A stretch of DNA of 64,000 nt, from NCBI GenBank assembly GCA_020851375.1, contig JADZCV010000045.1:62001-126000 (forward strand), read 5' to 3'. Every line of letters begins with the position of its first letter. The stretch's first letter is position 1. Under the pieces are notes generated by a model. The model ran no database searches. It saw nothing but the letters and a program-made list of their open reading frames with translations, and had not been told where the DNA came from. Of this stretch, positions 7,871 to 62,391 are shown piece after piece. Source of the stretch: Nitrospirota bacterium (GTDB taxonomy: Bacteria > Nitrospirota > 9FT-COMBO-42-15 > HDB-SIOI813). Position numbers and translations under genes: made by a program.

Positions 7871-8230
7871 TTATACCCCTCCATCAGCCTTACCGCCCAG
7901 AGTCCTTGATACAAGATCGCTGATCTTTTTTTTATCTTTCAGGGAAATCCTGATAAATTTTATACCCATGCCAGGGGCAATATCTCCTGCAAATTCCTTC
8001 CGTGCCCATACTACCACACCTTCTATAACCGTCTTGTCTGTATCACCAGGAAGGAACAGCTCAACAGTAACGACCTCGTTGGCAGACATTGGATGGAATG
8101 TCTCTATGAAGAGACCTCCACCTCCTATAGTAGAGGTGAACCCCTCCTCAATCACGATACTATCAGGACTGTGGTATTTAATCGAAAGGGAAAGAGGTGC
8201 GCGTAAGAACCTTCGCCTGTCACTATTCAT
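7871..8230 (-). CDS. PilZ domain protein (possible c-di-GMP receptor)
   Basis: A single PilZ domain of 119 residues. The N-terminal RRRFLR fits the arginine c-di-GMP-binding motif, and TSTIGGGGLFIET occupies the second motif. That motif is normally Asp/Asn-x-Ser-x-x-Gly and here has Phe in place of the Asp/Asn, so binding may be weakened. The rest (GVVVWARKE and GMGIKFI) matches the single-domain PilZ group seen in myxobacteria and relatives. It sits between purF and radA, downstream of a GGDEF protein in the same apparent transcription unit. Confidence 0.8.
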   Translation of the reverse strand: MNSDRRRFLRAPLSLSIKYHSPDSIVIEEGFTSTIGGGGLFIETFHPMSANEVVTVELFLPGDTDKTVIEGVVVWARKEFAGDIAPGMGIKFIRISLKDKKKISDLVSRTLGGKADGGV

Positions 8231-8244
8231 GCGTTAGTAAGTTA

Positions 8245-9621
8245 TCAAACATCAAAAAGACCAAGTTGATTGATTTCATCATCACTAAATGGTATTGGAT
8301 AGCTGCCATTAAAACATGCCACGCAGAATTTGTCCGGCGGGTTACTGACAGCTCTTAACATCCCCTCAATACTGAGATATGCAAGGGTATCCGCAGTTAA
8401 TTGCCTGCCTATTTCATCCACACCCATCTTAGACGCAACAAGCTCTCTCCTTGTCGGAGTGTCTATACCGTAAAAACACGAATATTTCACCGGCGGCGAT
8501 GCAATCCGCATGTGCACCTCGCTTGCACCGGCCTCCCGCAACATTGTAACAATCTTCTTGCTTGTGGTGCCCCTGACAATAGAATCATCAACGACTATAA
8601 CCCTTTTACCCTTTAAGACTTCCTTGACAGGATTTAACTTGAGTCTTACACCGAAGTTTCTTATAGACTGCTTGGGAACTATAAATGTCCTGCCGACATA
8701 GTGACTCCTTATTAGTCCATTGTCAAAAGGTATACCGCTGGCCTCAGCAAATCCCATGGCTGCAGGTGTCCCTGAGTCCGGAACCGGAATAACGATATCT
8801 GCCTCTACGACAGACTCTCTTGCCAGCTCCATACCCATCTTCTTTCTTATAATATTAACACTTTCACCATATACATAGCTGTCGGGACGCGCAAAGTAGA
8901 TATGTTCGAAAATACAATAAGCCTCATTTGCCTTTTCAAACGGCATATATGAGGTAAGACCGTTGTTATTGATAACCACAACTTCACCAGGCAGAATGTC
9001 CCGGATAAAACGAGCCCCAATCAACTCAAATGAGCTTGTCTCAGAAGAGAGTACAAATGAACCATTGAGTTCACCCAGTGACAGCGGCCGGAAACCATAG
9101 GCATCTCTTACACCGATCATCTCCTTTTCCGTTAAAATGAGGAGTGAGTATGCACCCTTTACCTTTCTCAGTGCATCAATTAACCTGTCAAGTATAGTCC
9201 TCTCCCTCGAAAGGGCTATCAGGTGAACTATGACCTCACTGTCAATTGTAGACTGGAATATTGAACCATGCGCCTCAAGCTCGCTCCTTAGAAATGACGC
9301 ATTGACCAGATTGCCATTATGTGCCAGGGCGAGGGAGCCCATTGCAAAGTTGACGACTACAGGCTGTACGTTTTCAATTATGCTCTCGCCATAAGTTGAA
9401 TATCTGTTATGACCTATGGCGCTCATCCCCTTAAGACGCGAGAAGTTGTCATCCTTGAATATCTCTGAAACAAGTCCCATTCCCTTTTTGCAATAAAGCT
9501 TGCTTCCATCAGAAGAAACTATGCCGGACCCTTCCTGCCCCCTGTGCTGGAGTCCGTGGAGTCCAAGATAAGTGAGGTTTGCCGCCTCATTGTGATTATA
9601 TACGCCGAATATTCCACACAT
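8245..9621 (-). CDS. purF: Amidophosphoribosyltransferase PurF
   Basis: Catalyses the first committed step of purine synthesis: PRPP plus glutamine to phosphoribosylamine. Starting at ATG 9621 puts the catalytic Cys at position 2 (MCGIFGV), as required for the Ntn glutaminase; the longer frame to 9669 overlaps purL and would bury it. AGGAAT precedes this ATG. The C-terminal half has the PRPP loop VIVVDDSIVRGTT. Cysteines in YCIFE, SCFYGID and FCVAC fit the four ligands of the [4Fe-4S] cluster of Bacillus-type PurF, so the enzyme is probably oxygen-sensitive. It follows purL by 8 nt. Confidence 0.95.
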   Translation of the reverse strand: MCGIFGVYNHNEAANLTYLGLHGLQHRGQEGSGIVSSDGSKLYCKKGMGLVSEIFKDDNFSRLKGMSAIGHNRYSTYGESIIENVQPVVVNFAMGSLALAHNGNLVNASFLRSELEAHGSIFQSTIDSEVIVHLIALSRERTILDRLIDALRKVKGAYSLLILTEKEMIGVRDAYGFRPLSLGELNGSFVLSSETSSFELIGARFIRDILPGEVVVINNNGLTSYMPFEKANEAYCIFEHIYFARPDSYVYGESVNIIRKKMGMELARESVVEADIVIPVPDSGTPAAMGFAEASGIPFDNGLIRSHYVGRTFIVPKQSIRNFGVRLKLNPVKEVLKGKRVIVVDDSIVRGTTSKKIVTMLREAGASEVHMRIASPPVKYSCFYGIDTPTRRELVASKMGVDEIGRQLTADTLAYLSIEGMLRAVSNPPDKFCVACFNGSYPIPFSDDEINQLGLFDV

Positions 9622-9629
9622 GTGTATTC

Positions 9630-11849
9630 CTATTCTTCCCCAAGATACGCCGGAATTGCACGTTTCCATACGTCAGCCATGCGGCTCACTGGCAAATCAA
9701 TGACTGTCGTTGTCTTATGTCTGATCACGAGCCTTTCTCCGGTAACTTTTCCTATTACCGTAAAAGGGGTCATCATTTTCCGGGCGACTTCATTCAAATC
9801 TTTAACCCTCTCAGGGTTGACTGTAATTATAATCCTTGACTGACTTTCGCCAAAGAGAAGGGCATCCACTCTGATTTCATCGGTAAGTTCAATTATTGCA
9901 CCATGATTTCCATTGCCTTCAGAATGCATACAACACTCGGCAAGGGCTACTGCAAGCCCACCCTCTGACGTATCATGCGCTGATTTAATTATACCCTCTT
10001 TTATCCCATAAAGACAAAGTTCCTGCACCTTTTTTTCCAGATCCAGGTCAAGGAACGGAGGGAGCCCCCGCACTTTATAGTGTATCTCCCGAAGGTACTC
10101 GCTCATACCAAGTTCTTCGAGGCTATTGCCTAACAGGATAACAACATCCCCTTCCTTCTTGAAATAATGTGTCATGAACCTTGATATATCGTCAATAACG
10201 CCTGCCATTCCTATTATTGGAGTAGGATAAATTGATATATCGTTGGTCTCATTATAGAAGCTTACGTTGCCGCTGATAACAGGTATGTTGAATTTTCTGC
10301 AGGCAGCGGATATACCCTCTATGGCCTGCTGAAATTGCCACATAATCTCAGGCCTTTCGGGATTTCCAAAATTAAGGCAATCTGTCAGACCAACCGGTTC
10401 GCCTCCGGCACAAGTTATATTTCTGGCCGCCTCCGCAACAGCTATTGCACCACCTGCGTGCGGATCAGAGAAGCAGTAACGGCTGTTGCAATCAGCAGTC
10501 ATTGCTATACCTTTGTTAGTCCCCTTTATCCTGATAACCGCAGAATCAGACCCGGGAACAACGACAGTGTCAGTCCGGACCATATGGTCATATTGCCTGA
10601 ATACCCATTCCTTGGAAGCAATTGTCGGGGAAGCCAGGAGTGTCAGAAGTACATTTCCAGGGTCCTGTGGAACAGGCAGATTTTCCATGTCAAGATCATG
10701 AAGGATGTCAAGATAAGGCGGAGGGGACGTTTTTCTGTCATAAAGCGGGGCCTCATCTGTAAGGGAATCTATCGGGATATCTGCCGTCACATCGCCATTG
10801 TTGATAACCCGTATCCTCCTTGTATCCGTAACCTTTCCAATTACTACTGCGTCAAGGTCCCACTTATGAAATATCTCCATAACATCTTTTTCTTTTTCAG
10901 GTACAGTCACTATTAGCATACGTTCCTGAGACTCTGACAGCATTACCTCGTAAGGGGTCATACCGGCTTCTCTCACAGGGACCAGGTCAATATGAATATC
11001 AATCCCGGTCCCTGCCCTTCCGGCCATCTCACAGGATGAACTTGTCAGCCCAGCCGCACCCATATCCTGTATTCCTACTATAAGCCCCTTGTGCATGACC
11101 TCGAGGCAGGCCTCGAGCAGGAGTTTTTCTGTAAACGGGTCGCCTACCTGAACAGTGGGCCTTTTAGCCTCAGAGGTTTCATCAAAGACGTCAGAGGCCA
11201 TTGTAGCGCCATGGATTCCATCCCTGCCTGTCTTTGAGCCGACATAAATGACAGGGTTGCCAACACCGCTTGCCACCCCTTTAAAAATCCTGTCCTTCCT
11301 GACTATTCCAAGGGCAAATACATTTACAAGGATGTTATTGTTGTATATCTCATCGAAATATATTTCACCGCCAACGGTCGGCACCCCGATACAATTTCCA
11401 TAACCTGCTATGCCGCTTACCACCCCTGAGAAAAGATGCCTGTTACGGGGCACTTTTATATCGCCGAAACGAAGCGAATCAAGTATCGCCACCGGTCTTG
11501 CGCCCATAGTGAATATATCCCTCAGAATGCCCCCAACGCCTGTTGCAGCGCCCTGATATGGTTCTATAAATGACGGATGGTTGTGGCTTTCCATCTTAAA
11601 GACAGCTGCAAGACCATCCCCAAGGTCTATTACGCCGGCATTCTCACCTGGCCCCTGCAATACCCTGTCGCCTTTTGTTGGGAATTTCCTCAGGTGTATC
11701 CTTGAGCTCTTGTAACTGCAGTGCTCACTCCACATTACAGAGAAGATGCCCAACTCCACAATCCCAGGCTCCCGGCCAAGGATCTTTAATATCCTCTGGT
11801 ATTCTTCATCTGTAAATCCGTGTGACTCAATTATTTCTCTTGATATCAA
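9630..11849 (-). CDS. purL: Phosphoribosylformylglycinamidine synthase subunit PurL
   Basis: The synthetase subunit of the three-part FGAM synthase, which converts FGAR, ATP and ammonia to FGAM. The 739-residue length is that of the small PurL that works with PurQ and PurS, both present here. Seen: the N-terminal [11 protein letters not shown], the KMESHNHPS nucleotide-binding region, [14 protein letters not shown], and [14 protein letters not shown] near the C-terminus. It follows purQ by 13 nt and precedes purF by 8 nt. Confidence 0.96.
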
Positions 11850-11862
11850 GATTCTCCCTCAG

Positions 11863-12570
11863 CTATGACCTGTTAGTCATCTTTTCAACATAATATATCA
11901 TTGACTCAAAAAGGGTATACCCGTCCGTTCCGCCAAGTATCTGCTCCCCGCATCGTTCTGGATGAGGCATCATGCCGAGGACGTTTCCTTTGTCATTACA
12001 TATACCTGCGATATTACCTACTGATCCGTTTGGATTGGCAGCTTCATCTATCTCTCCGTTTTGTCTGGAATATCTGAATATGATCTGATTGTTCTTTTTC
12101 AGGTGAGAGTATGTTTCGCTGTCAACATAATAATTGCCTTCAGCGTGGGCTATAGGCATTTTGGCAACCTGGTTTTCAAAGTACCTGAGGGTAAACGGGG
12201 TGTTGATATTATCAACCCTCAGGTAGACGTTTTTACAGATAAACTTTAAGGATTTGTTTCTCAGCATGACACCAGGCAGAAGTCCTGCCTCAAGAAGGAT
12301 CTGGAAACCGTTGCATATACCAAGGACAAGCCCTCCCCTCCCTGCAAATTCCTTTAACGATGTCATGACAGGAGAAAGACAAGCCATCGCCCCTGTCCTG
12401 AGATAGTCGCCATACGAGAATCCGCCGGGCAGGATAACAGCATCATATTGAGAGAGGTCTTTTTCCTTGTGCCAGACAAAACTTGCAGGCCTGCCTAATA
12501 CATTCTTTACGATGTTATAGCAATCATGGTCACAATTAGAACCTGGAAATACAATTATTGCAAATTTCAT
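11863..12570 (-). CDS. purQ: Phosphoribosylformylglycinamidine synthase glutaminase subunit PurQ
   Basis: A class I glutamine amidotransferase that feeds ammonia to PurL. The catalytic Cys is in LGICNGFQ (Cys86), with the His/Glu pair in MMPHPE near residue 205. The N-terminal FPGSNCDHD is typical of PurQ. Length 235 residues is normal. About 50 nt upstream ends the receiver-like gene of the signalling cassette, which separates purQ from purS and purB. Confidence 0.96.
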
Positions 12571-12620: not shown

Positions 12621-13283
12621 TTACGGCAAGACCAAATTGCACTGCTGCGTTTTACTTATAAAATCCCTGATTGCATCATTGAAATAATCAGGCAGATCTG
12701 GTGGGTTTGTGTGTACACAGAATCTCTGCCTGTATATTGCCATACCTTTTTCGATTTCATCCTTCAGGATGTCATAAAAAGTGCCATCTGCTGCACCCTT
12801 GTATGCCGCATCAGAGTTATAAATAATTATATCGGATACTATTGCCCTGGCCAGCCTGCTTGCATCTTCGTTTAACTGAACCACCCCATCCGTTTGTTTA
12901 CATGGAATACCATGTGAACAATATTTGTAAACTGCCGGAAGGAGACCTGTGCTGAGGAGGTCAATTTCAATCACCTCATCAACATGCTCAATCTCATCCT
13001 TTTCCTGCTGCATGGAATTTCCGGTAACCAGGATAATCCTGGTATCACTGAACCGCTCAATACCCTTAATTATCCTCCATGTTTTTTTCCCCATAATCTC
13101 AGGAAGTCCTGAATCTGCAATTACGGCTACAGGCATATACGTTTCAATCAGACTGAATATCATGCGTTGATTTAACGCAGAAATAAGCGTAAAGCCTTCA
13201 GGTCCAAGTATGGAGGCGATAAGCCCGTTCAAACCGTCATCATCTGTACATATAATAATTGTGTCTTCTGATACGCCGTTCAT
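12621..13283 (-). CDS. Degenerate receiver-like domain protein with helical C-terminus
   Basis: A 220-residue protein. The N-terminal 120 residues resemble a response-regulator receiver: acidic TDDDG near 13, a candidate phospho-Asp in VIADSGLPE and Thr in LVTGN. The conserved Lys near the end of the domain seems to be missing, so phosphorylation may be altered or lost. The C-terminal half, with EDASRLARAIVSDIIIYNSD and GTFYDILKDEIEKG, resembles a helical module I have seen associated with signalling proteins of deltaproteobacteria but cannot name. The gene overlaps the CheW gene by 4 nt (ATGA), so it belongs to the cassette. Confidence 0.6.
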   Translation of the reverse strand: MNGVSEDTIIICTDDDGLNGLIASILGPEGFTLISALNQRMIFSLIETYMPVAVIADSGLPEIMGKKTWRIIKGIERFSDTRIILVTGNSMQQEKDEIEHVDEVIEIDLLSTGLLPAVYKYCSHGIPCKQTDGVVQLNEDASRLARAIVSDIIIYNSDAAYKGAADGTFYDILKDEIEKGMAIYRQRFCVHTNPPDLPDYFNDAIRDFISKTQQCNLVLP

Positions 13284-13771
13284 GTCTTCTCCATACTGGT
13301 TTCAATCAGCAGAATCAACCTGCTGTTGTAATCCATGGCAGCCCTGTAAAACCTCAGGTTTTCTTTTCCGATAAATTCGGGAACCGGGCGGAAACTTTCC
13401 GGGGAAATTGAAACAACCCCGCTTGTTGAATCAACAAGCATTCCGACAAGCATATCATTAAAATTGACAATAAGTATACGCGTGTTGACCTTCACTGTGG
13501 TGGCTGTTAGTCCAATATATTCCATGAAATCAATAATTGGAATGACAGTGCCCCTTAATGACAATACACCCCTTACATATGAAAATGTGTTGGGGACCTC
13601 TGTCACATCCACATAGTGGATCACTTCCACAATAATTGCGGCATCCATTGCATATTCCTGACCTGAAACACTGAAAATGAGGTATTTATCCGACTGGAAT
13701 TCGGAAACTTCTGCAGTGCAGTCTGACAAAGAGTCCCTGTCTTTTTCATCTACGCCTGGAGCGTAATTCAT
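13280..13771 (-). CDS. CheW-like adaptor of the purine-operon signalling cassette
   Basis: A 163-residue single CheW domain (about 25-160), with strands such as KYLIFSVSGQEYAM and the central GVLSLRGTVIPIIDF segment diagnostic for CheW. CheW proteins couple receptors to CheA kinases. Its partner should be the CheA encoded two genes upstream. No chemoreceptor gene lies in this cassette, so the input may be the DUF4388 protein or a receptor elsewhere. It is 15 nt after the GGDEF gene and overlaps the receiver-like gene by 4 nt. Confidence 0.88.
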   Translation of the reverse strand: MNYAPGVDEKDRDSLSDCTAEVSEFQSDKYLIFSVSGQEYAMDAAIIVEVIHYVDVTEVPNTFSYVRGVLSLRGTVIPIIDFMEYIGLTATTVKVNTRILIVNFNDMLVGMLVDSTSGVVSISPESFRPVPEFIGKENLRFYRAAMDYNSRLILLIETSMEKT

Positions 13772-13786
13772 AGCTGTCTCAAGAGA

Positions 13787-14713
13787 TCACCGGCCGCTGC
13801 CGTATGCAACGCGGTTTCTTCCTTCACGTTTTGCCTTATACAATGCCTGATCAGCCTTGTTTATGAGGGCATCACACCCATCCTTGGTATCATCAGGGAA
13901 TGTTGATACGCCAATGCTTGCAGTTACCTGCCTTCCTCCGTTTAGTTCTATCAGCAGGGGATTTTCTTCAATCAGCCTTCGGATACGTTCCGCAACTATA
14001 TGTGATCCTATAACTGTATTCTGTGAAAGGACAATGATAAACTCATCCCCTCCGTACCTTACTGCAAAATCATATCCCCTCAACATTACCTGCAGGAGTC
14101 TTGCGACTTCCCGTATGATTTCATCGCCGCGCTGATGCCCGAACGTGTCGTTAATGTCCTTAAAATTATCAATATCAAGAATAATAAGGGAAAGCTTCAG
14201 ATTGAATCTCTCACTCCTGTTATACTCCCTTCTGAGTGTACCATACAAATATCTCTGATTATATAAACCGGTCAGGGAATCCACGACACTCACATGTTCC
14301 AGCTCTGTAATCTTTGCCTTGAGCTCTTTCTGAAGGCCTTTTAATCTTAGTAAGATATTTACTCTTAGAGCAAGTTCGTGAGGATGAAAGGGCTTCGTCA
14401 TGTAGTCAATTGCACCACTCTCCAGCCCCCTGATCTTGTCATATATCCCCCTGTTGGCAGACAACATTATGACCATTAGGTCATCAAACCTTTTTTCCCT
14501 GCTCAGCATTTCCATCAATCTGAAACCATCCATCCCAGGCATCATTACATCACAGATCATCATGTCAATCTCTTCTCTGGATAAGATCTTTATGGCGCTG
14601 AAACCGTCATTGGCCTCGAAATAGTTTTCAAAAAGATTTGCATTCCTGAGACTTTCCTTTACCTTCTGTCTCATAAGGTGGGAATCATCAATTATCAGGA
14701 CACTGTTATTCAT
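13787..14713 (-). CDS. Response regulator with GGDEF diguanylate cyclase domain
   Basis: 308 residues: an N-terminal receiver (about 1-122, phospho-Asp in MMICDVMMPGMDG, Lys in MTKPFHPHE) and a GGDEF domain (about 145-305). The active-site loop is intact (RYGGDEF) and an RxxD inhibitory site (RGYD) sits five residues before it, so the enzyme should make c-di-GMP from two GTP with product inhibition. The layout is PleD/WspR-like. The CheA just upstream is the likely phosphodonor, making this the output of the cassette. Confidence 0.93.
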   Translation of the reverse strand: MNNSVLIIDDSHLMRQKVKESLRNANLFENYFEANDGFSAIKILSREEIDMMICDVMMPGMDGFRLMEMLSREKRFDDLMVIMLSANRGIYDKIRGLESGAIDYMTKPFHPHELALRVNILLRLKGLQKELKAKITELEHVSVVDSLTGLYNQRYLYGTLRREYNRSERFNLKLSLIILDIDNFKDINDTFGHQRGDEIIREVARLLQVMLRGYDFAVRYGGDEFIIVLSQNTVIGSHIVAERIRRLIEENPLLIELNGGRQVTASIGVSTFPDDTKDGCDALINKADQALYKAKREGRNRVAYGSGR

Positions 14714-14782
14714 TCTTACGACTTTTCGGAAGCTGACTGATAATCTTAAGAAATAATGGCTTCGTACAACGTCCCTGCGTTG

Positions 14783-16756
14783 TCAGAAAGGAACCCGGCT
14801 GCAGAATGTCCTGTCTGTCAGGCCGGCTATATCAATTACAGGCACAATTTTCTGTGTATCTATCTCAGCAAAACCTGCTATACACGGAACATCCTTAAGT
14901 AATTTGCCGGGATGTTTAACAAGTATCTCTCTCTGGCCATACAGTTTGTCAACTATTATACCCATTTTCTTCTGTGCCAGGCCGGCAATTATGACGTATC
15001 TGTCCTTTTGAAGGGTATCCGCAACCGCTGCTCCGTGATATTTCATAACATCATTCAATCTGACAAGCGGCAGATAATCCCCCCTGAGATTAATGCACTC
15101 CCTATCCCTTATAATCTTTATATCACACTCTCTCAACCTCAAATTCTCTGATATGGAATTTAAAGGTATTGCAAATTCTTTTCCTGAAGCGGATACTATT
15201 AATGCCCTCACTATCAGCAGGGATACCGGAATGGTAATCCTGAATATGGTTCCTTTTCCGTAAGTTGTCTCAACATCTATCATACCGGACAAAGCCTCAA
15301 TGTTTCGTGCCACAACATCAAGACCAACCCCCCTTCCGGATACGTCATCAGTTGTATCTTTAGTGGTAAAGCCAGGCTTGAAGAGCACCTGCATGAGACT
15401 TCTTTCATCCCTTTCATCAGCCATGATCAGGCCCATTCCAAGCGCAGAGTTGTATATAGAATCGAAATTTAACCCTCTGCCATCATCTTCAATTTCAATA
15501 ACAACATTGCTGTCCTTCTGCACGGCGCTAACTCTTATAATTCCGTCAGGATCCTTGCCTCTTTCCCTGCGCACTTTTTCATCCTCTATACCGTGGTCAA
15601 TTGCATTACGTATTAAGTGCATAAGCGGGTCTGCAAGCTCTTCTATCATAGACCTGTCAAGCCTCGTATCTCCGCCGGAAACTTCAAGACTTACCTTCCT
15701 GGACAACTCCTTTGACAACAAATCCACTATTCTGAATAGCCTTTCAAACAGCACTCCTACTGGCACCAATCGGATATCCAGAAGCCCGTCGCGCAGCGCT
15801 GCAATCTTCCTGTTCAGCAATTTATTACATCTGTTAACGTCAAGAAATGTTACATTGTAGCCGTATTTAATCTTTATGTCATTTATTGAGTGAGTCATGG
15901 AGCTGTTTAATAATAATATATCACCAACAGTATTCAGAAGATCTTCGAGCCGTTCAATGTCAACTCTCACAGTTTTTGTTATACTCTTTGCAGAATGAGG
16001 CGCAGCCTCAGGGACATCTGTGTCTTTCACCTCCATAATCCGGGTTACGGAGACGATGGCAGGGTGAGATATAGTATTATTGTCCGAAGAGAACAGTATC
16101 TCAAAAGACATCATGTCATCAGAAGAAAAACCGGATACAGGGATAACTGCAATGATCTCCCCGCAACCAGTCAGATACTCCCTTAATCCTGACATCTCCC
16201 CGTCTACACAGTCAATCTGCATGTGTGCCATAAGACTGTATATCCTGCGACCCTGCTTATGAGACGCCATAACCCTGTATTGTTCGAAATCCGAGAGTTT
16301 GGCAGCTAACTCATGTGGCATCCTGCTGTTAATATTTGCACCTGTATCATCCTGAATCCTGACTTTAAGAAGCTTGCCAATCCTTTCGACTGCAGGAGCT
16401 ATGTCGGAATACTCATTCCCCTGTTCATTTATATCATTCAGAAGTGCAGTAAATTTGTCCGCTACCTCGAACAAAGCATCTACAACATCATAATTTAACT
16501 TAATCCTGCCGAACCTCAGGGAATCCAGTAAATCTTCAAGTCTGTGACTTAAGGAACTGATTCTTGAAAAACCGGTTACATCAGATATGCCTTTTAAGGT
16601 ATGGATCCCGCGAAACAATGCATTAACGACGTCAGGATCGTGCACCTTCGCTGAATTACAGGATGTCTTGAGGATACAGAGGTTTTTGTTGAGGTGTTGG
16701 ATAATATCTTCTGCCTCTGTCAGAAACTCTTTATAGTCATTTCCCGGGTTACTCAT
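14783..16756 (-). CDS. CheA-type histidine kinase of the purine-operon cassette
   Basis: A 657-residue CheA. The N-terminal Hpt domain has the phospho-His in GIHTLKGIS. Then come a variable region, a dimerisation helix pair, a HATPase with LMHLIRNAIDHGIED and DVSGRGVGLDVV, and a C-terminal CheW-like domain. It lacks a receiver, unlike many alternative-function CheAs. It differs from the flagellar CheA at 58465-60249 in the Hpt and linker. The start overlaps the DUF4388 stop by 8 nt. The likely phosphoacceptor is the receiver-GGDEF protein 70 nt downstream. Confidence 0.92.
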   Translation of the reverse strand: MSNPGNDYKEFLTEAEDIIQHLNKNLCILKTSCNSAKVHDPDVVNALFRGIHTLKGISDVTGFSRISSLSHRLEDLLDSLRFGRIKLNYDVVDALFEVADKFTALLNDINEQGNEYSDIAPAVERIGKLLKVRIQDDTGANINSRMPHELAAKLSDFEQYRVMASHKQGRRIYSLMAHMQIDCVDGEMSGLREYLTGCGEIIAVIPVSGFSSDDMMSFEILFSSDNNTISHPAIVSVTRIMEVKDTDVPEAAPHSAKSITKTVRVDIERLEDLLNTVGDILLLNSSMTHSINDIKIKYGYNVTFLDVNRCNKLLNRKIAALRDGLLDIRLVPVGVLFERLFRIVDLLSKELSRKVSLEVSGGDTRLDRSMIEELADPLMHLIRNAIDHGIEDEKVRRERGKDPDGIIRVSAVQKDSNVVIEIEDDGRGLNFDSIYNSALGMGLIMADERDERSLMQVLFKPGFTTKDTTDDVSGRGVGLDVVARNIEALSGMIDVETTYGKGTIFRITIPVSLLIVRALIVSASGKEFAIPLNSISENLRLRECDIKIIRDRECINLRGDYLPLVRLNDVMKYHGAAVADTLQKDRYVIIAGLAQKKMGIIVDKLYGQREILVKHPGKLLKDVPCIAGFAEIDTQKIVPVIDIAGLTDRTFCSRVPF

Positions 16757-17780
16757 TTTGAGGTTTTGAAGCTGTCAACGCTATACCTGCAATCCTGACA
16801 AAGGCCTCAAGGGCTGACGTGTCGTCTATCTTGCTCCTTCCAGGCAGGTTGTCACCGTATAATACGGCCGTTACCTCTTTACCTTCAATCAATGGCGCTA
16901 TGAAAACCTCCTCAGGCACACCTTCACCCAGATGTTTTACGATATAGGAGTTCCAGTCTGTCTCAGGAAGCAGCCCCCTGTATGCCTGCAGGTTTTCCAT
17001 CGCATTTTTAATTACCGAAGGTTTATCAACAGGAATACGTAAATCCTTTATCCTTTTTTCTGTTGCCCCCATTGATATACCAACCTGCCCAAACCCAATT
17101 GCGCTGCCTCCTTTGATTTTAAAGATGACAGCCCTGCCCAGCGATTCACCGGCAATCCTGAGGATCATAACCAGCATCTCTGTGCGAACACACGGGATCC
17201 TGAGCTCTTCAATCAGCGAAACAATGGTATCGGAACGAGATCCGGAATTGCCGGCCGGCGTTTCAGAAGTATTTTTCTCATCCACAGACGATATAACCTT
17301 CTTTCCTTCATCTCTCAGTCTCGTCCCTTCAAGAAGTATGTACTCAGTACTGACGCTTATGCCCTGGGACACATATGGCATTGGCTGTTCAGGCTCAAAA
17401 CGAAAGACCCCTTCGTCCCATGAAAGCATCTCATAAATAACCTCTTTGACCAGCGACTGTATAAGGTTTTCAAGGACATCTTTGCCGATAAATTTATTCT
17501 CTGTCAGAATGGAACCTAACGGTTCATACACCTTCCTGTCCTTTTGGATCCTGAGTGCGATTTCAAGGTCGTCTTCCTTTAACTTACCTTCCCTGATCAG
17601 CCTCTCTCCCAGCATTTCTTTCCCCTGCATGGAGGCATAAAGTATCTGACCTTCATGAAAAACCACCCGCCCTTTACCGGCCTGGCTTTCCAAATTTAAA
17701 ACACCGCTTTTTTTACTTATGTGGACTATCTGAAGTATGTCAGGAAGGCTGAGATCTGATAAATGTCCTTCAAGGCTCAT
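16749..17780 (-). CDS. DUF4388 (PATAN) domain protein with GAF-like C-terminus
   Basis: 343 residues. The first 150 form a DUF4388/PATAN domain (GHLSDLSLPDILQIVHISKK, then GVLNLE, GRVVFHEGQILYA and EGVFRFE). After a low-complexity linker (about 165-195) the rest looks like a GAF-type sensor fold with IAPLIEGKEVTAVLYGDN. PATAN domains occur in two-component and small-GTPase signalling in many bacteria. As the first gene of the cassette and with no receptor nearby, it is a candidate input or scaffold for the CheA. It follows purS by 30 nt. Confidence 0.75.
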   Translation of the reverse strand: MSLEGHLSDLSLPDILQIVHISKKSGVLNLESQAGKGRVVFHEGQILYASMQGKEMLGERLIREGKLKEDDLEIALRIQKDRKVYEPLGSILTENKFIGKDVLENLIQSLVKEVIYEMLSWDEGVFRFEPEQPMPYVSQGISVSTEYILLEGTRLRDEGKKVISSVDEKNTSETPAGNSGSRSDTIVSLIEELRIPCVRTEMLVMILRIAGESLGRAVIFKIKGGSAIGFGQVGISMGATEKRIKDLRIPVDKPSVIKNAMENLQAYRGLLPETDWNSYIVKHLGEGVPEEVFIAPLIEGKEVTAVLYGDNLPGRSKIDDTSALEAFVRIAGIALTASKPQNE

Positions 17781-17810: not shown

Positions 17811-18053
17811 TTATTTTTTAATCTCATATCGGAAATCCTCTACGATAGTATTAGCAAGAAGATTATTGCACATCTCTTTAATCTGAGACTCAATATCTGC
17901 CCCTGTGGTATTGTCAAGGCTAAGCTCAATATACTTGCCTATCCTGACATCATTAACTGCAGAATATCCAAGGGTATGCAATGAATGCTTTACTGCCTTA
18001 CCCTGAGGGTCCAGAATCCCCTCCTTGAGCGTAACATAGACGTTTACCTTCAA
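17811..18053 (-). CDS. purS: Phosphoribosylformylglycinamidine synthase subunit PurS
   Basis: An 80-residue protein matching PurS throughout: MKVNVYVTLKEGILDPQGKA at the N-terminus, then the ALxxLGY-type segment HSLHTLGYSAVNDVRIGKY. PurS bridges PurQ and PurL in the three-part FGAM synthase. The start is TTG at 18053 with GGAGGGTGA just upstream. Unusually, purS is parted from purQ-purL by the five-gene signalling cassette, and sits 37 nt after purB. Confidence 0.95.
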   Translation of the reverse strand: MKVNVYVTLKEGILDPQGKAVKHSLHTLGYSAVNDVRIGKYIELSLDNTTGADIESQIKEMCNNLLANTIVEDFRYEIKK

Positions 18054-18090: not shown

Positions 18091-19386
18091 CTATTTTCCG
18101 TATACCCTGTTGAAAATATAATCTACATTCTTTAAATGGTACCCGATATCAAAGCATGATCTGACCTCAGCCTCACTCAACAACTGCATTACATCAGCAT
18201 CATCCAGAAGGAGCTTCTGAAAATCCGCACCAATGTTCCATGCATTCATGGCATTTTTCTGTACCAATCTGTATGCCTTATCTCTGTCCATCCCCTTTCT
18301 CACCAGTTCAAGAAGCACACGCTGTGAATTTATAAGTCCGTGGGTCAGATTAAGGTTCTTTATCATATTTTCAGGATACACAACCATGTCCCTTATAATA
18401 TTTATCAATCTGTTAAGCATATAGTCAATAAGAATCGTGCTGTCAGGCATTATAACCCGCTCGACAGAAGAATGACTGATGTCACGCTCATGCCATAACG
18501 GTATATTTTCGAGAGCTGCAAGGCAATTTGAACGGACAATCCTTGCGAGTCCGCTTATATTTTCACAACCCACAGGATTTCTCTTGTGAGGCATCGCGGA
18601 TGAACCTTTCTGCCCTTTGGTAAAAGGCTCCTCAACCTCCAGCACCTCTGTCCGCTGAAGGTGCCTTATCTCTGTTGCGAATTTATCAAGGCTGCCGGCT
18701 GTTATGGCAAGTGTACACATAAATTCAGCGTGTCTGTCCCTCTGCATTATCTGAGTTGATACCGGTGCAGGTTTCAATCCAAGTTTGTTGCAAACATACT
18801 CTTCCACATACGGAGGTATATTGGCAAAAGTGCCCACAGCACCTGAGATCTTGCCGTAAGAAATGCCGTCCCGGGCGTTTAACAGACGTACAATATTCCT
18901 TTTTGTCTCCTCGTACCATAATGCCATCTTGAGTCCAAACGTTACAGGCTCTGCATGTATGCCGTGAGACCGGCCCATCATCACAGTATCTTTGTACGCA
19001 TATGCCTTCTCCTTCAGAACCTCCAAAAGCCTGTTAAGATCATCAAGTATGATGTCTGAAGCATCCCTCAGCTGAAGTGCAAGCCCCGTGTCAAGGACAT
19101 CTGAAGAAGTTAATCCAAGATGTAGGTACTTGGCCTCATCACCGATGCACTCGGATACAGCAGTCAAAAAGGCTATAACATCATGTTTTACATCAAGCTC
19201 AATCTCGTTGATCCGCTCTGTATTTATAACGGCCTTCTCTTTTATCACACGGAGGGCAGATTCAGGTATCTCACCTTTTTGCGACAAAGCCTCACAGGCC
19301 AGGATTTCAATTGCAAGCCATTTTTTAAACTTGTTCTCAGGCTCCCATACCTGCTTCATCCCCGGAAGTGAATATCTTTCAATCAT
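18091..19386 (-). CDS. purB: Adenylosuccinate lyase PurB
   Basis: Cleaves SAICAR to AICAR and adenylosuccinate to AMP, releasing fumarate. The 431-residue length is normal. Seen: MIERYSLPGMKQVWEPENK at the N-terminus, the GRSHGIHAEP catalytic His region and the superfamily signature GSSAMPHKRNP with the flexible-loop Ser. The start overlaps the nusB stop by 4 nt (ATGA) and has GGAAAGG upstream. Confidence 0.96.
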   Translation of the reverse strand: MIERYSLPGMKQVWEPENKFKKWLAIEILACEALSQKGEIPESALRVIKEKAVINTERINEIELDVKHDVIAFLTAVSECIGDEAKYLHLGLTSSDVLDTGLALQLRDASDIILDDLNRLLEVLKEKAYAYKDTVMMGRSHGIHAEPVTFGLKMALWYEETKRNIVRLLNARDGISYGKISGAVGTFANIPPYVEEYVCNKLGLKPAPVSTQIMQRDRHAEFMCTLAITAGSLDKFATEIRHLQRTEVLEVEEPFTKGQKGSSAMPHKRNPVGCENISGLARIVRSNCLAALENIPLWHERDISHSSVERVIMPDSTILIDYMLNRLINIIRDMVVYPENMIKNLNLTHGLINSQRVLLELVRKGMDRDKAYRLVQKNAMNAWNIGADFQKLLLDDADVMQLLSEAEVRSCFDIGYHLKNVDYIFNRVYGK

Positions 19387-55296: not shown

Positions 55297-55302
55297 TGTA
55301 AG

Positions 55303-56916
55303 TTATAACCTGAATTGGGAGGTCACGGCCTGTAACTCTGATGCTATTTTAGAAAGTTCGTTTGCGGAATTGCTTGTTTCCCTGACACTGCCTGCAGTCT
55401 CTCTTGTAACAGCAGCTATGCCCTCCATATTTGATGATATATCCCCGGCTGCAGCAGACTGCTGCTCAGAGGCTGCAGCGATCTGATGAATCATATTTGA
55501 TACATTTCTTACTATATCTACTATCCTTGTCAGGCTCTCGCCTGCGCTCGAAGCAAGTTCCACACCTGTCTCAACATCTTTTCTCCCGCTGTTCATTGCA
55601 TCAACCGCCCCCGCTGTCCGCTTCTGAATAAACTCAATCTTATCCCTGATTTCTTTCGTTGATTTTGAAGTCCTCTCAGCAAGTTTTCTGACTTCATCTG
55701 CCACTACAGCAAACCCCTTTCCATGTTCACCGGCCCTCGCTGCCTCGATTGCAGCATTCAGGGCAAGAAGATTGGTCTGGTCCGCAATATCATTTATGAC
55801 AGTTATAATATACCCTATCCGGTCTGAATTCCTTCCAAGCTCTTCAATGGTCTTTGCAGACTCTTCCACATATTTTGCTATTCCCTGCATCCCTGACACT
55901 GTCATGGAAACAACCTCGCCTCCGTTCATTGCCATTTCCGAGGCCTTCCTGGCAAACTCAGCAGCCTGACTCGTATTGCCGGCAACCTGACTTACTGTAG
56001 CACTCATCTGCTCAATGGCAGTAGCGACCTGCGTAACCTGCATGTTCTGATTTTCAGTACCTTTGGATATATGCTCAGAGGTGGCAGACAACTGCATTGC
56101 CGTGAATCCGGCACGTTGAGTTAATTCAGCCGCCCTGGTAAGCACATCAGTTATTTTATCCGCAAATGTATTGAAACTTAGGGCAACTTCCCCTGATTCA
56201 TCCATCCTGTCTGTATCAAGCCTCCGTCGCAGGTCTCCGTCGCCTTCAGCAATTTCTTTAAATACCAATGCCAGATTGTGTAATGGCGAAACGGTCATTC
56301 GAGCTATGAAGTATGCCATAACGAATCCTGTAATTATCATGGCCAGGCTCATAAACGTAAATATCCTGTTATTCCATCCTGTTATGGATTCTATGTCTGA
56401 AATCCTGTTACTGAACATTTCAGAAGTTCTTCGTTTATACAATTCAAGCCGTTCTTTAAGCCCTGATACAGATTCACTGAATCTCGTCATACCGGATTCT
56501 ATCATCTGCGGGTCTCTGCTGATTACTGCCTCTGTTATCAGCCGGCCGTCATGGTTAAACCTTTCAAATAATTCGCTTATTTCTTCAATCTCCCTGATCC
56601 CGGATGCATCACTGATTTTAAGTTCATTGATTGATGCGGTAAATCTGTCTGAGCTCTCTTTGGCCCTGGCCATGATACGGGTATCTGCTGATCCAGCCGT
56701 ATTTGAGTAATAACCCACTATTGCCTGAAATTCGGATAAAAGAATATGTGTATGCTCAAGGCGCAGATAATCTCGGTTCCTGAGTTCATGTGAATGCCTC
56801 TGAATGGCTTTGTTTGAAATAAAGGAAAACAGGGTGGTAGAAACAAACAGGAGAGATAATATGCAGAAACCAAGATATATTTTCTGTCTTATTCGAAGAG
56901 AATTTAAATACCTCAT
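55303..56916 (-). CDS. Methyl-accepting chemotaxis protein
   Basis: 537 residues: a first transmembrane helix (about 12-32), a helical periplasmic sensor (about 35-185, four-helix-bundle type), a second helix (about 188-210), HAMP (about 210-265) and a cytoplasmic signalling domain. The kinase-control tip is intact: [20 protein letters not shown] and [15 protein letters not shown]. No CheR-tethering pentapeptide ends the protein. It follows a CheW gene by a 4-nt overlap (ATGA). Confidence 0.95.
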
Positions 56917-57365
56917 TCCTGGCCTACAATAAGCAGTTCTTCCAGATTCAAGACTGTAATCAGCCTATCTTCCTTTTTACCGATACCCATAATGTACTTG
57001 GAACTGGTATTTTCATCAATAGCAGGACAGGGCTCAAGCTCATCAGGACTGAGATTTATAACATCTATAACAGCATCCACGACCAGGCCTGTCATCCTTG
57101 TCCCGGAATCAACGACAATAATCCTTGATGATTCTGTACATTCTGTGACACTTGTGCCCATTCTGTTCCTTAAGTCTATTACCGGGACTATTTTTCCCCT
57201 GAGGTTTATTACACCTCCGACATAGGAAGGGGCCTTTGGGACCTTTACTGCTCCAATAACTCTTATGATCTCCTGAACCTTCATAATGTGTATACCGCAC
57301 TGTTCATTTCCTACCATAAAGGTAACTATTTGCAATGTATCATCTGCAACTGCATTGTTCTTCAT
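56913..57365 (-). CDS. cheW: Chemotaxis adaptor CheW
   Basis: 150 residues, one CheW domain: [20 protein letters not shown], then [20 protein letters not shown]. Links the chemoreceptor to CheA. Between cheB (34 nt upstream) and mcp (4-nt overlap). Confidence 0.94.
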
Positions 57366-57399
57366 TATGAAAGTATCCTTTCTGTCATACCATGCCCTC

Positions 57400-58449
57400 T
57401 CACAACATATTGATTATTTCATCGGCGATCTTTCCAAGCGGAACTATCTTATCTACTACACCACTGTCTATAGCAGCCTTTGGCATCCCAAATATTATGG
57501 AACTCTCTTCATCCTGGGCAATAACTTTTCCGTTCATTTTCTTGATCATCTTAAGCCCTTCACAGCCATCCTGTCCCATCCCTGTCATAATGACACCAAG
57601 GGCATGTCCTGAATAAGTCTTCGCTACTGATTCCATAGCAACATCCACTGAAGGCATATGTATCATTTTGGGTTCATTGGTCAATCTTATGTGCACATCA
57701 CCTGCCCTGCCCCTTTCAACTGTAAGATGTGAACCTCCCTTTGCAATAAGCGCCAGTCCAGGTTTGATGATGTCGCCATCTTTAGCCTCCCTCACCCCAA
57801 TGTGGCACAACTCACCCATCCTCTCTGCAAAGGATGCAGTAAACAGGGGCAGCATATGCTGCACAACTATAATCCCGGCGGGAAAGTTTCCCGGGAGCCT
57901 TGGCAGCACGTCCTGAAGAGACTTGGGACCTCCTGTCGAGGATCCAATAATTACAATATTAATGCTGTGCGCATCAGGCTTATGCTTGAAGTCATGATTC
58001 AAAACAGAAACAGGTATTGCATCAACTAACCGTTTCATCTTATTTTTACTGCGGCCAAACATCTTTACCTTGCTTACAATTTCATCCTTTATATTGGTAA
58101 TATTAACGATATTTCCTGACAGATGCTTCGGCACATAATCAACAGCTCCAATATCGAGCGCCTTCATGGTCTCCCTTGCCCCTTCTTCAGTAAGGGAGCT
58201 GACCATTATAACAGGCACAGGCATATCCTTCATTACATGCCTCAGTGCATCCAGCCCATTCAGCCGAGGCATCTCAATATCCATTGTAACAACATCAGGA
58301 ACCAGGGACTTTACTTTGCGTACTGCATCCTCACCATCTGACGCCTCCCCGATAACCCTTATATCCGGGTCAGAGTTCAGCATACCGGTAATTGCCTTTC
58401 TCATAAATGCAGAATCATCCACCACAAGAACCCTAACAGGACTGCTCAT
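57400..58449 (-). CDS. cheB: Protein-glutamate methylesterase CheB
   Basis: 349 residues: receiver domain with phospho-Asp in VVTMDIEMPRLNGLDAL, linker, and methylesterase domain with the Ser in IGSSTGGPKSL, His in VVQHM and Asp in TGMGQDGCEG. Removes methyl groups from, and deamidates, chemoreceptors. It follows cheA by 15 nt. Confidence 0.97.
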   Translation of the reverse strand: MSSPVRVLVVDDSAFMRKAITGMLNSDPDIRVIGEASDGEDAVRKVKSLVPDVVTMDIEMPRLNGLDALRHVMKDMPVPVIMVSSLTEEGARETMKALDIGAVDYVPKHLSGNIVNITNIKDEIVSKVKMFGRSKNKMKRLVDAIPVSVLNHDFKHKPDAHSINIVIIGSSTGGPKSLQDVLPRLPGNFPAGIIVVQHMLPLFTASFAERMGELCHIGVREAKDGDIIKPGLALIAKGGSHLTVERGRAGDVHIRLTNEPKMIHMPSVDVAMESVAKTYSGHALGVIMTGMGQDGCEGLKMIKKMNGKVIAQDEESSIIFGMPKAAIDSGVVDKIVPLGKIADEIINML

Positions 58450-58464
58450 TACGAAGGACCTCCC

Positions 58465-60249
58465 CTATGCTGTTGCCAACTCCTTTTGTTTGTAAATCAA
58501 TGATCCGGGGTCAAGTATCAGCCCCACTTTGCCGTCGCCTGTAATAGTTGCGCCAGACACCTCTTTTATATCTGTAAAATATGAACCGACTGGTTTTATT
58601 ACAACCTCTTCCTGATGGCACAACTCATCTACAATGACTCCAACCTTTTTCTCAGCAATATCCATGAGGACAACATACACCCAGTCACGCTCCGCCTCAT
58701 CGCTGGCCAGTTCCAGCGCATCGCTGAGCTTAATAAGAGGAATCAGGCTGTTTCTGACATTAAGGATTCTCTGACCATCAATGATTTTGAGACTGCTCTT
58801 GGGAACCCTGAAAGTCTCATGAATGGAAACAAGGGGAAGCGCATACATCCCGTCATTTACCTTGACCATCAGAACCTGAATTATGGCAAGTGTAAGCGGT
58901 ATTTTAAGCGTCATCTGCGTCCCTTTGCCAACTTCTGAATTTACATCTATTATTCCATTTATACGTCCTATGTTGGTTTTTACGACATCCATCCCGACGC
59001 CTCTGCCTGATATGTCACTAACCTTTTCAGCAGTACTAAAGCCTGGTTCAAAAATATAGTTTATAATCTCTTTGGATGATAATTTAATATCCTGATTTCT
59101 AATAAGACCACGCTCCCGGGCCTTTTTTTCAATAACTGAAGGATCAATACCCTTTCCATCATCCTCAATCTGAATTACTATGGAGTTGCCTTCCTGACAT
59201 GCTTTAAGTCTGATAGTACCTGTCTCAGGTTTTCCATTTTTTACCCTATCCCCGGGTGCCTCAATCCCGTGATCTATGGAATTCCTGATGAGATGAACCA
59301 GAGGGTCATTAAGTTCTTCTATTACTGACTTGTCTATCTCTGTGGCCTCACCAAGCATCTCGAGATTGATCTTTTTATTTGCCTTTCTGGCAATATCGCG
59401 CACCATCCTTGGAAATTTATTAAATACCTTCCTGATTGGCACCATTCTCATCTTCATAACTGACAGCTGAAGGTCTGTCGTGATAAGACTGAGGTTGGAT
59501 GAGGTCTCAAGGAGGGTCTTGATCTTCTCGTCTCCATCGTATAATCCCTCAATATCAGAGAGTATCTTTGTCAGTCTGTTTCTGCTAAGTACCAGTTCAC
59601 CGACGAGATCCATAACGTGATCAAGCCGGTCAGTATCAATTCTCAATGTCTGTTCTTTTTCTTCAACAGCTGCAACAGCCTGTTTTTCCGATACCCTGTC
59701 TGCCGACTCATTTACCGCAGCCGGTTTAACAGGTTTAACAGATTCGGATAGTTCGACCTCCGGAGCCTGAGAAATCACCTGGTTTGCACCTGGCTTCTCT
59801 TCAGCGTTTTCGGATGCATTGGGATCTGATGATGACGAATCAACAAGCGCTGAGTATTCCAGAAGTAATGCCAACTTTCTTTTTATAGTACTTATATCAA
59901 CCTTATCGCCGGAACTATCCTTTATCTCGCTCATCAGGACCTTCAACACGTCAACTGATTCAAGGATTATATCTATGGTCTCAGATGTTGCCTGTATCTC
60001 CTGCTGACGGAGTTTGTTCAATACATTTTCAGACTGATGGGCCACCTCTACAAGACGCGTAAATCCGAGAAATCCGGCAGAACCCTTGATACTATGCACC
60101 GCCCTGAATATCTCATTAATAAGACCCAAATCACCAGGGGCCTCCTCAAGCGTTACAAAACACTTATCAAGCCCTTCAAGCACCTCATCAGTCTCTACAA
60201 CAAAATCCCTTATCAGCTCCTGCATCTCATCCTGCGTCTCGTCCGCCAT
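58465..60249 (-). CDS. cheA: Chemotaxis histidine kinase CheA
   Basis: About 594 residues: Hpt with phospho-His in VHSIKGSAGFLGF, a Pro/Ala/Glu-rich linker (about 150-200), dimerisation helices, HATPase (LVHLIRNSIDHGIE, DISGRGVGMDVVKTN) and a C-terminal CheW-like domain. The receptor-type kinase of the flagellar pathway. I start at ATG 60249, 5 nt after AGGAGG; the frame runs on to 60270. A 149-bp repeat separates it from the CheW-CheZ gene. Confidence 0.96.
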   Translation of the reverse strand: MADETQDEMQELIRDFVVETDEVLEGLDKCFVTLEEAPGDLGLINEIFRAVHSIKGSAGFLGFTRLVEVAHQSENVLNKLRQQEIQATSETIDIILESVDVLKVLMSEIKDSSGDKVDISTIKRKLALLLEYSALVDSSSSDPNASENAEEKPGANQVISQAPEVELSESVKPVKPAAVNESADRVSEKQAVAAVEEKEQTLRIDTDRLDHVMDLVGELVLSRNRLTKILSDIEGLYDGDEKIKTLLETSSNLSLITTDLQLSVMKMRMVPIRKVFNKFPRMVRDIARKANKKINLEMLGEATEIDKSVIEELNDPLVHLIRNSIDHGIEAPGDRVKNGKPETGTIRLKACQEGNSIVIQIEDDGKGIDPSVIEKKARERGLIRNQDIKLSSKEIINYIFEPGFSTAEKVSDISGRGVGMDVVKTNIGRINGIIDVNSEVGKGTQMTLKIPLTLAIIQVLMVKVNDGMYALPLVSIHETFRVPKSSLKIIDGQRILNVRNSLIPLIKLSDALELASDEAERDWVYVVLMDIAEKKVGVIVDELCHQEEVVIKPVGSYFTDIKEVSGATITGDGKVGLILDPGSLIYKQKELATA

Positions 60250-60294
60250 CTCCCCCTCCTGCAATTTCAATTAAAACATGTGTATTCTTAATTT

Positions 60295-60443
60295 TTGCTC
60301 AAAAACGTTCAGATGCAAGGAAAGACATAAGATTTGAGGCGAGGCGTACTGTGTAGTACGTTGAGTCTCATATTTTATGTCTTGACGCCGCACGACCCAT
60401 TGCATTTACTTCGCAGCAATGGGTGCCCGGCGTTTTTCAGCAA
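60295..60443. repeat. 149-bp palindromic element with terminal inverted repeats
   Basis: Ends TTGCTCAAAAACG (60295-60307) and CGTTTTTCAGCAA (60431-60443) are inverted repeats at 12 of 13 bases. Inside are a 16-bp inverted pair (60323-60338 and 60367-60382), a CGTACT/AGTACG hairpin (60345-60360) and a CCCATTGC/GCAATGGG hairpin (60396-60403 and 60416-60423). No ORF. It looks like a MITE or REP-type element placed inside the chemotaxis operon between cheA and the CheW-CheZ gene. Confidence 0.75.
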
Positions 60444-60446
60444 TAA

Positions 60447-61574
60447 TTAATCGAAACCGAATTCCTTTAGTATATTATCCACCACATCCTGCTTCAGTGT
60501 AGGATTACTTGTAAACTGTTTAAGTGAGCTGTCCCCTTCTATTGAATCCTTAGATTTGAGTCCAAAGGTAACAATCAGCTGAAGCAGACGCTTCTCCACA
60601 TCTTCAATAAGACCCACTATCATCTTGATCTTCTGCCCTGTCAGGTCCTGAAAAGAAAGGCTGGTGATAATATCCATCAGTATCTCCCGGTTCTCTGAAA
60701 CGACATTTTTTACTTCCCCGATTGAATTTACAAGATCATTACCCCTTTCTGCAGACTCGGCATGATGAATAATCAGATCATGATTATCAAGCACCTTTTC
60801 AACCTGGCCCATCACTGTATGTGTTGCAGCCTCTGTAGCCCTGGATATTTCCGACAACTGTACAGATGCCTGCGGAATTTTGTCTGAAGCATGTGTTATA
60901 TTTGGTTCAACTGCCTGCATCTTTTTTATGGTTGTATTGATATATCTGGCAATATCACCTAACTGTCCATACAATTCTTCCTTGACTTCATGCTGAAAAT
61001 CACCCTGAGACATTGCCCTTGCCGCATGAACGAGCTGATCTATATCATTAGTGGAACAGTCAGAGACATTAAAGTCTGATTTATTTTCATACGTATTCTG
61101 TACAGTATCTGCAAGACCGCTGCCCTGACCATAGTCCTTAAACAATTGTGCAAGGTCAAGCACTATTGTAATATACCCGTTATTCCTGATAATACCACTT
61201 ATATACTCAGAGCTTATGCTCTTTGTAATCGCCGGGGGATCTTCAAGGCTTTTATCAGAAACTCGCAATACCTCAGATACGGCATCAACAAGAATGCCAA
61301 TTTTATCTCCGTTTAATCCAACTATAATAATTCTCGTATCTTTTGTTATTTCTCCTGCAGGTATTCCAAGTTTTCCCCCGAGGTCAATTACCGGAATGAC
61401 AAGGCCGCGAAGATCTATGACACCCAGGACATTGCCAGGGAGTTCAGGCATCCTGTTGATATGCTCATATCTGTTGATCTCATGTACATCAGCAATATTA
61501 ACCGCAAATTTCTCCCCGCCTACTGAGAACCCCACCAACTGCAATACCCCCTCTGACTGTTTTTGTGCCTGCAT
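60447..61574 (-). CDS. CheW-CheZ fusion: receptor adaptor joined to CheY-P phosphatase
   Basis: About 375 residues. Residues about 5-145 are a CheW domain (VGFSVGGEKFAVNIADVHEI, LGVIDLRGLVIPVIDLGGKL). A HAMP-like helical stretch follows (about 175-215, ARAMSQGDFQHEV), then a CheZ long helical hairpin with SFQDLTGQKIK carrying the catalytic Asp (about 310) and Gln (about 314), and a C-terminal DNILKEFGF like the CheY-docking tail of CheZ. I start at ATG 61574, preceded by AAGGAG; the frame from 61607 overlaps cheY. It would place the CheY-P phosphatase in the receptor array. Confidence 0.88.
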   Translation of the reverse strand: MQAQKQSEGVLQLVGFSVGGEKFAVNIADVHEINRYEHINRMPELPGNVLGVIDLRGLVIPVIDLGGKLGIPAGEITKDTRIIIVGLNGDKIGILVDAVSEVLRVSDKSLEDPPAITKSISSEYISGIIRNNGYITIVLDLAQLFKDYGQGSGLADTVQNTYENKSDFNVSDCSTNDIDQLVHAARAMSQGDFQHEVKEELYGQLGDIARYINTTIKKMQAVEPNITHASDKIPQASVQLSEISRATEAATHTVMGQVEKVLDNHDLIIHHAESAERGNDLVNSIGEVKNVVSENREILMDIITSLSFQDLTGQKIKMIVGLIEDVEKRLLQLIVTFGLKSKDSIEGDSSLKQFTSNPTLKQDVVDNILKEFGFD

Positions 61575-61593
61575 TATATGGCTCCTTGCTACA

Positions 61594-61977
61594 TTATTTA
61601 CCGTCAAATATCTTCTCTATCTTCTCCTTCAGGACATCGGCTGTAAAAGGCTTCACAACATAATTATTGACTCCTGCCTTTATGGCATCCAGTACATTCT
61701 CTTTCTTGGCCTCTGCTGTCACCATGAGTACAGGTACAGAGCTCAGTACATTGTCTGCGCGTATAGCCCTTAACAGGTCAAGTCCGGTCATATTAGGCAT
61801 GTTCCAGTCAGACACCACAAGACCGAACCCACCCTGCCGCAGTCTTGCAAGCGCGCTGTTGCCGTCTTCTGCCTCTTCAATATCCGTGTAACCAATCTGT
61901 TTCAGGATATTCTTCACTATCCTGCGCATAGTGGAAAAATCGTCCACAACGAGCACCTTCATCTTAAGATCTAACAT
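61594..61977 (-). CDS. cheY: Chemotaxis response regulator CheY
   Basis: 127 residues, single receiver: [19 protein letters not shown], phospho-Asp in [16 protein letters not shown], Thr in [11 protein letters not shown], Lys in [11 protein letters not shown]. This is the flagellar-type CheY that binds the motor switch. Just upstream of the CheW-CheZ gene and overlapping the other receiver gene by 14 nt. Confidence 0.95.
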
Positions 61978-62350
61978 ATCTGCACCTCTCCAATATTATT
62001 TTTACCTCTTCTACGAGACTCTCCTTCGTTATAGGCTTTGTCAGAAATGCCGTAGCGCCTTTTTGTATCAATTCAGTCTTTCTTGTGTTGTCATTCTCTG
62101 TTGTTAATATAACCAGTGGAATCTGCATATACGAAGGATTACTGCGCACCCATTCTATCAGCCCTGCACCATCCATCTGCGGCATATTGAGGTCTGAGAT
62201 GATCATATCCACGCCGGATGAAACGAGTTTCTCTATCGCCTCAACCCCATTGCCGGCTGATATTGTCCTGAATCCGGCGCTGCCAAGGTACAGTGATACT
62301 ATTTTCCTCGTTGTCCTGCAATCATCTACCACTAAAATGCTTTTTTCCAT
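61964..62350 (-). CDS. Second single-domain response regulator (CheY-like)
   Basis: 128 residues: [19 protein letters not shown], phospho-Asp in [19 protein letters not shown], Lys in [16 protein letters not shown]. Less like the motor-binding CheY than the next gene; it may act as a phosphate sink or in adaptation, or drive a different output. It overlaps cheY by 14 nt and lies 41 nt after cheR. Confidence 0.9.
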
Positions 62351-62391
62351 AAGACACCCTTTTCCTGCTGTTAGGTTCTTAATTACTATTC

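Follow-up and report, generated by a model that had tools for sequence, protein, structure and literature searches.

A chemosensory cassette with a receiver-GGDEF output at a conserved address beside purS in Nitrospirota

Bacterial chemosensory gene clusters have usually been studied next to motility or polysaccharide genes. The Wsp system of Pseudomonas (WspA-F, WspR) couples a CheA-type kinase to a receiver-GGDEF protein that synthesises c-di-GMP; its kinase WspE is a hybrid CheA with a C-terminal receiver (PMC8552884), and the cluster also encodes two CheW proteins, CheR, CheB and the receptor WspA. Cyanobacterial Tax systems with PATAN regulators (PixG, PilG, TaxP) cluster CheA and CheW with a DUF4388-type protein in genomes that have type IV pili, and PATAN regulators of Synechocystis bind the pilus motor PilB1 (PMC10519157, PMC9090330). 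Components of both occur together in the 64,000-nucleotide stretch of Nitrospirota DNA analysed here (the window), where they lie within purine genes, an arrangement for which we find no report in the open-access literature, most subscription papers being outside this coverage.

The genes form one run on the minus strand. The upstream flank is purB (adenylosuccinate lyase; 18091..19386; Pfam Lyase_1, 8e-62, and ADSL_C, 1.5e-25), followed by purS, the conserved neighbour of the cassette (17811..18053; PurS, 3.7e-33). The cassette itself comprises a DUF4388-GAF gene (16749..17780; DUF4388, 1.9e-33, with a GAF-like C-terminal domain), cheA (14783..16756; Hpt, H-kinase_dim, HATPase_c and CheW domains), a receiver-GGDEF gene (13787..14713; Response_reg, 2e-26, and GGDEF, 3.2e-48), cheW (13280..13771; CheW, 2.9e-28) and a degenerate receiver gene (12621..13283; Response_reg at 1e-5, under Pfam's cut-off, with a conserved C-terminal region). 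Downstream lie purQ (11863..12570; GATase_5, 1.1e-45), purL (9630..11849; AIRS and AIRS_C), purF (8245..9621; GATase and Pribosyltran domains) and, 3' of purF, a PilZ-domain gene (7871..8230; PilZ, 2.2e-12). Open reading frames and Pfam matches bear out a preliminary description of this DNA, which had placed the five cassette genes on one strand between purS and purQ, with purB-purS and purQ-purL-purF as flanks and a PilZ gene after purF; the short gaps and overlaps that it had noted inside the cassette measure -8 to +69 nt. From purB onwards, successive gaps are 37 nt to purS, 30 to DUF4388, -8 to cheA, 69 to the GGDEF gene, 15 to cheW, -4 to the degenerate receiver, 50 to purQ, 13 to purL, about 8 to purF and 14 to the PilZ gene. 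The purL-purF value holds after the purF start was reset to the codon preceding the catalytic Cys, which in PurF comes directly after the start Met; In the translation, PurF proper starts MCGIFG, and the purL/purF overlap that seemed present results from a misassigned start codon.

Since the cassette belongs to a long directon, co-transcription with the purine genes is probable; the spacing is compatible with this prediction, and similarly tight spacing is seen in the sister species. A promoter and terminator scan gave matches only moderately above shuffled expectation, mostly intragenic, with one extended -10-like site (12629-12600) just 5' of purQ; the corresponding gap in a genome of the same genus, G001, is only 11 nt. 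Rfam at gathering scores returned no match within the window, and hence no purine-binding riboswitch.

The signalling proteins retain most of the residues on which phosphotransfer and cyclase activity would depend. In CheA, the phosphorylated His (HTLKG), the N box and both G boxes are invariant in 9/9 aligned homologues; the protein ends in its CheW domain, with no Response_reg match in Pfam. The receiver-GGDEF protein, 87% identical to the sister-species copy, keeps the acidic pair, acceptor Asp and Lys, the GGDEF signature and the RxxD inhibition site, and an alignment of nine homologues in which RYGGDEF and RxxD are invariant upholds the earlier view of an intact GGDEF enzyme. The degenerate receiver retains the acceptor Asp and, in this genome, has lost the Lys; some of its relatives (e.g., at L038) bear an N-terminal zinc ribbon, and it is probably a docking or phosphate-sink protein.

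Conservation was read first from purS neighbourhoods and then with a DUF4388 profile over 296 genomes of the phylum, which finds full-length DUF4388 relatives in many families. Within the genus, G001 and G002 match the order exactly, PilZ gene included; G003, from another genus of the family, differs in having no CheW, again with PilZ after purF. G007 and G009 carry purS-CheA-receiver-GGDEF-CheW, and family f3 carries purS-DUF4388-CheY-CheA-receiver-GGDEF-CheW, continuing with a second CheW, a zinc-ribbon receiver, a HEAT-repeat protein, CheR and CheB at L038 and with an MCP at L037. The order is thus conserved in related genomes, as had been proposed, identically in G001 and G002 and as variants in eight other families; its sharing by G001, G002, G003 and those eight families excludes chance and rules out an order unique to this strain. 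DUF4388 and PurS are adjacent in 20 sampled genomes from nine families (f1, f3, f22, f24, f25, f28, f29, f31, f38), and both are present yet apart in 14 genomes from six families (f4, f7, f15, f19, f25, f35). Among the remaining cassette-bearing genomes, most lack a detectable PurS. Where a GGDEF gene occurs in f1, f3 and f29, it occupies the same slot between CheA and CheW. The unlinked DUF4388-CheY-CheA cassettes of the phylum (e.g., L135, L142) have orthologous DUF4388, CheA and CheW, but lie away from purS, with receptor, HEAT protein, CheR and CheB downstream, and an ExeA-like AAA ATPase (L135:13018-13830 and equivalents) replaces GGDEF in the CheA-CheW slot.

Many cassette-bearing genomes of families f5, f6, f20, f21 and f23 have no detectable PurS and so must differ in FGAM synthetase or purine supply. 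Family f2 carries a different DUF4388-like gene directly 5' of ribBA, upstream of the purB-purS block (L043:16781-17593; L044:3069-3899), and in several linked families the nusB-purB interval holds a stand-alone gene, absent from the window, that resembles the N-terminal part of M17 leucyl aminopeptidase (L038:11900-12406; L122:7030-7596; L126:2587-3150).

In a DUF4388+CheA tree, a single branch divides purS-linked from unlinked cassettes (SH-aLRT 100, one change), and one ancient relocation therefore suffices as an explanation. A tree of DUF4388 only, made by a more careful method, unites every linked row in a single clade (100/100); two unlinked f25 genomes also fall within it and are best read as losses of linkage. 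PurS and a related DUF4388 lie on different contigs in f25 genomes G174 and G158. In unlinked families f35 (L171), f4 (L046) and f7 (L049), purS is followed directly by purQ-purL-purF, which suggests that the cassette was inserted between purS and purQ; it probably entered a single time, before at least nine families diverged, a direction that depends on rooting. Families f1 and f25 occupy separate parts of the linked clade, so the embedded arrangement is probably ancestral for it, and the other linked lineages probably lost purQLF from the site, again a direction that rests on rooting. One f25 genome, G292, carries purS-DUF4388-zinc-ribbon receiver-purQ-purL-purF without CheA (L123:7339-9941), either a remnant or a reduced pathway. 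Between families, DUF4388 is 28-41% identical. The cassette-purS arrangement is real, conserved and ancient.

Several linked families carry an MCP within the cassette, and here there is none between purS and purQ. The preliminary description had the cassette lacking its own receptor, which holds for the cassette itself but not for the genome, where another contig encodes an orthologous receptor. This orphan MCP of 716 aa (L161:7491-9641), with a HAMP domain and a weak sCache match, is 40-43% identical over its full length to the cassette receptors of f22, f29 and f31. In a receptor tree, its orthologues from six f1 genomes form one clade with the cassette receptors of f22, f24, f29, f31 and f38 (SH-aLRT 99), separate from this genome's other MCPs included in the tree; in G004, the orthologue is the only MCP found. 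This orthology indicates that the receptor gene was probably moved out of the cluster, not lost. The relocated receptor region (L161:354-9641) adjoins a MetH-like gene and lies about 6 kb from a divergent purC, placing the receptor again near one-carbon and purine metabolism, and similar neighbours recur by size in G001-G004.

DUF4388, which we take to be the PATAN domain, was also matched in Synechococcus elongatus among the control genomes. A structure model of the DUF4388 protein built from 41 homologues (pLDDT 83.7; an earlier model from nine sequences was poor, at 59.9) has an N-terminal domain with four inserted helices (residues about 56-110) and a C-terminal domain that matches GAF structures; the protein scores 32.7 bits against NCBIfam NF053729, with a cut-off of 38. 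By profile, the insertion matches the N-terminal domains of PilF, PilB and MshE (E 6e-18 to 1e-5, best five), which points to it as a relative of the MshEN domain. It resembles that domain in its four helices and in a 24-residue motif I close to the consensus, and its spacing is that of PilF GSPII-C. Motif I (consensus RLGxx(LVI)(LVI)xxG(LVI)(LVI)xxxxLxxxLxxQ, scored over 11 key positions) is kept at 9/11 positions here and at 8 to 11 in GGDEF-bearing cassettes, with mean scores of 10.4 in GGDEF-bearing, 8.9 in other linked and 7.3 in unlinked cassettes, a difference confounded by relatedness. Motif II, in contrast to the MshEN consensus, is degenerate (5/11 key positions here). In PilF, GSPII-A has a similar pattern and reportedly fails to bind c-di-GMP, while GSPII-C binds it (PMC11731258). 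We therefore cut back our reading of the insertion as an MshEN c-di-GMP receptor: with motif II degenerate and the similar GSPII-A non-binding, c-di-GMP binding by the insertion is possible rather than confidently predicted. The PilZ protein is likewise a doubtful c-di-GMP reader, because the second binding motif, (D/N)xSxxG, is missing from four aligned homologues in which RxxxR is invariant.

A second che cluster on the minus strand, at 55300-64000 and past the window end, encodes an MCP, CheW, CheB, CheA, a CheW-like protein, two CheY, CheR and a HEAT protein; FlhA (G000:C45:130205) lies next to it, about 3 kb further on, and this cluster is most likely the flagellar system. FlhA was not found in G004, G011 or G020, all three of which keep the purine-linked cassette, and PilT scores above its curated cut-off in 8/8 genomes tested; these findings together favour type IV pili or another surface function. 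From the gene content, the intact catalytic residues, the conserved order, the single-branch history, the receptor orthology and the presence of pilus genes, we read the locus, with a probability of roughly 0.6, as a predicted non-flagellar chemosensory pathway that controls surface behaviour through type IV pili and c-di-GMP. In this pathway, an sCache-HAMP membrane receptor, encoded elsewhere in the genome and coupled by CheW, would control CheA; CheA would phosphorylate the receiver of the receiver-GGDEF protein, and the phosphorylated protein would make c-di-GMP. The DUF4388-GAF protein may be either a link to the pilus extension motor, the predicted target, or a reader of a nucleotide messenger, and the degenerate receiver would probably dock proteins or drain phosphate as suggested above. 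Counting against this pathway, CheA must pair with a receptor whose gene lies at another place, and there may be cross-talk with the flagellar cluster; neither CheR nor CheB is found among the open reading frames and Pfam matches of the cassette between purS and purQ.

We put at about even odds the view that the cassette landed behind purS by chance and that its address is just an expressed operon, the pathway functioning as described. Linked and unlinked families alike preserve the upstream block ribBA-ribH-nusB-purB-purS, so the position may persist passively, and the separation of PurS and DUF4388 in f25 genomes G174 and G158 fits such an accidental bond. Less easily accommodated are the survival of the purS-cassette junction although most linked lineages lost purQLF there, and the long time elapsed that the 28-41% identity implies.

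That the cassette sits in a purine operon so as to match purine and GTP supply to c-di-GMP synthesis, with purine regulation setting the strength of the pathway, we consider improbable, although 20 genomes of nine families retain the purS junction while receptor, CheY, GGDEF and purQ vary, purines alter the c-di-GMP of Pseudomonas aeruginosa (PMC11197132), and P. fluorescens purine mutants make less biofilm (PMC4715448). In five purS-linked kinase-cassette families (f22, f24, f28, f31 and f38), the stretch read contains no GGDEF gene, and substrate supply is therefore not the general reason for the address; moreover, only DUF4388 and a receiver-like gene remain beside purS in G292, no purine-binding riboswitch was found within the window, and families of the same phylum keep the cassette apart from purine genes. 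The preliminary suggestion that GTP, as precursor of c-di-GMP, explains the location is accordingly weak. A broader version, in which purine gene expression would set the strength of a receptor-CheA-c-di-GMP-pilus circuit, coupling nucleotide supply to surface life, with DUF4388-GAF reading a nucleotide messenger, is speculative and, we think, unlikely; co-expression with growth genes, or plain inertia, accounts for the address equally well. A flagellar chemotaxis role has very little to recommend it, for although this genome has FlhA, the other cluster, with its own MCP, CheW, CheB, CheA, CheY and CheR, already adjoins that gene, the purine-linked cassette persists where FlhA was not found, and a GGDEF protein rather than CheY is its clear output here.

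The gene that most persistently accompanies the cassette encodes a purine-enzyme subunit; this pairing has survived deep divergence, during which receptor, CheY, GGDEF and purQ itself varied. This persistent address makes metabolic coupling of c-di-GMP and pilus signalling accessible to simple genetics, and cassettes with and without GGDEF at one address offer a natural set for comparison.

Set against the described systems, the cassette resembles Wsp in its CheA-type kinase and receiver-GGDEF output, but its CheA has no receiver domain, it has a single CheW and no cheR or cheB, its receptor is encoded elsewhere, and it adds DUF4388-GAF and degenerate receiver proteins and a location inside purine genes; a second CheW, CheR and CheB do occur in the f3 relative at L038. 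Membership in Wsp is ruled out by a CheA lacking the C-terminal receiver of WspE and by a cassette holding neither cheR nor cheB, so the label "Wsp-like", taken as membership, does not stand; the cassette probably works like Wsp at the cyclase step. As in the Tax systems, CheA and CheW cluster with a DUF4388-type protein where type IV pili also occur in the genome, but here the domain joined to DUF4388 is GAF instead of a receiver, and a GGDEF output is present. The locus encodes a known kind of chemosensory pathway that stands out for its unusual, persistent place in the genome, for a cyclase output specific to its lineage and for its relocated receptor.
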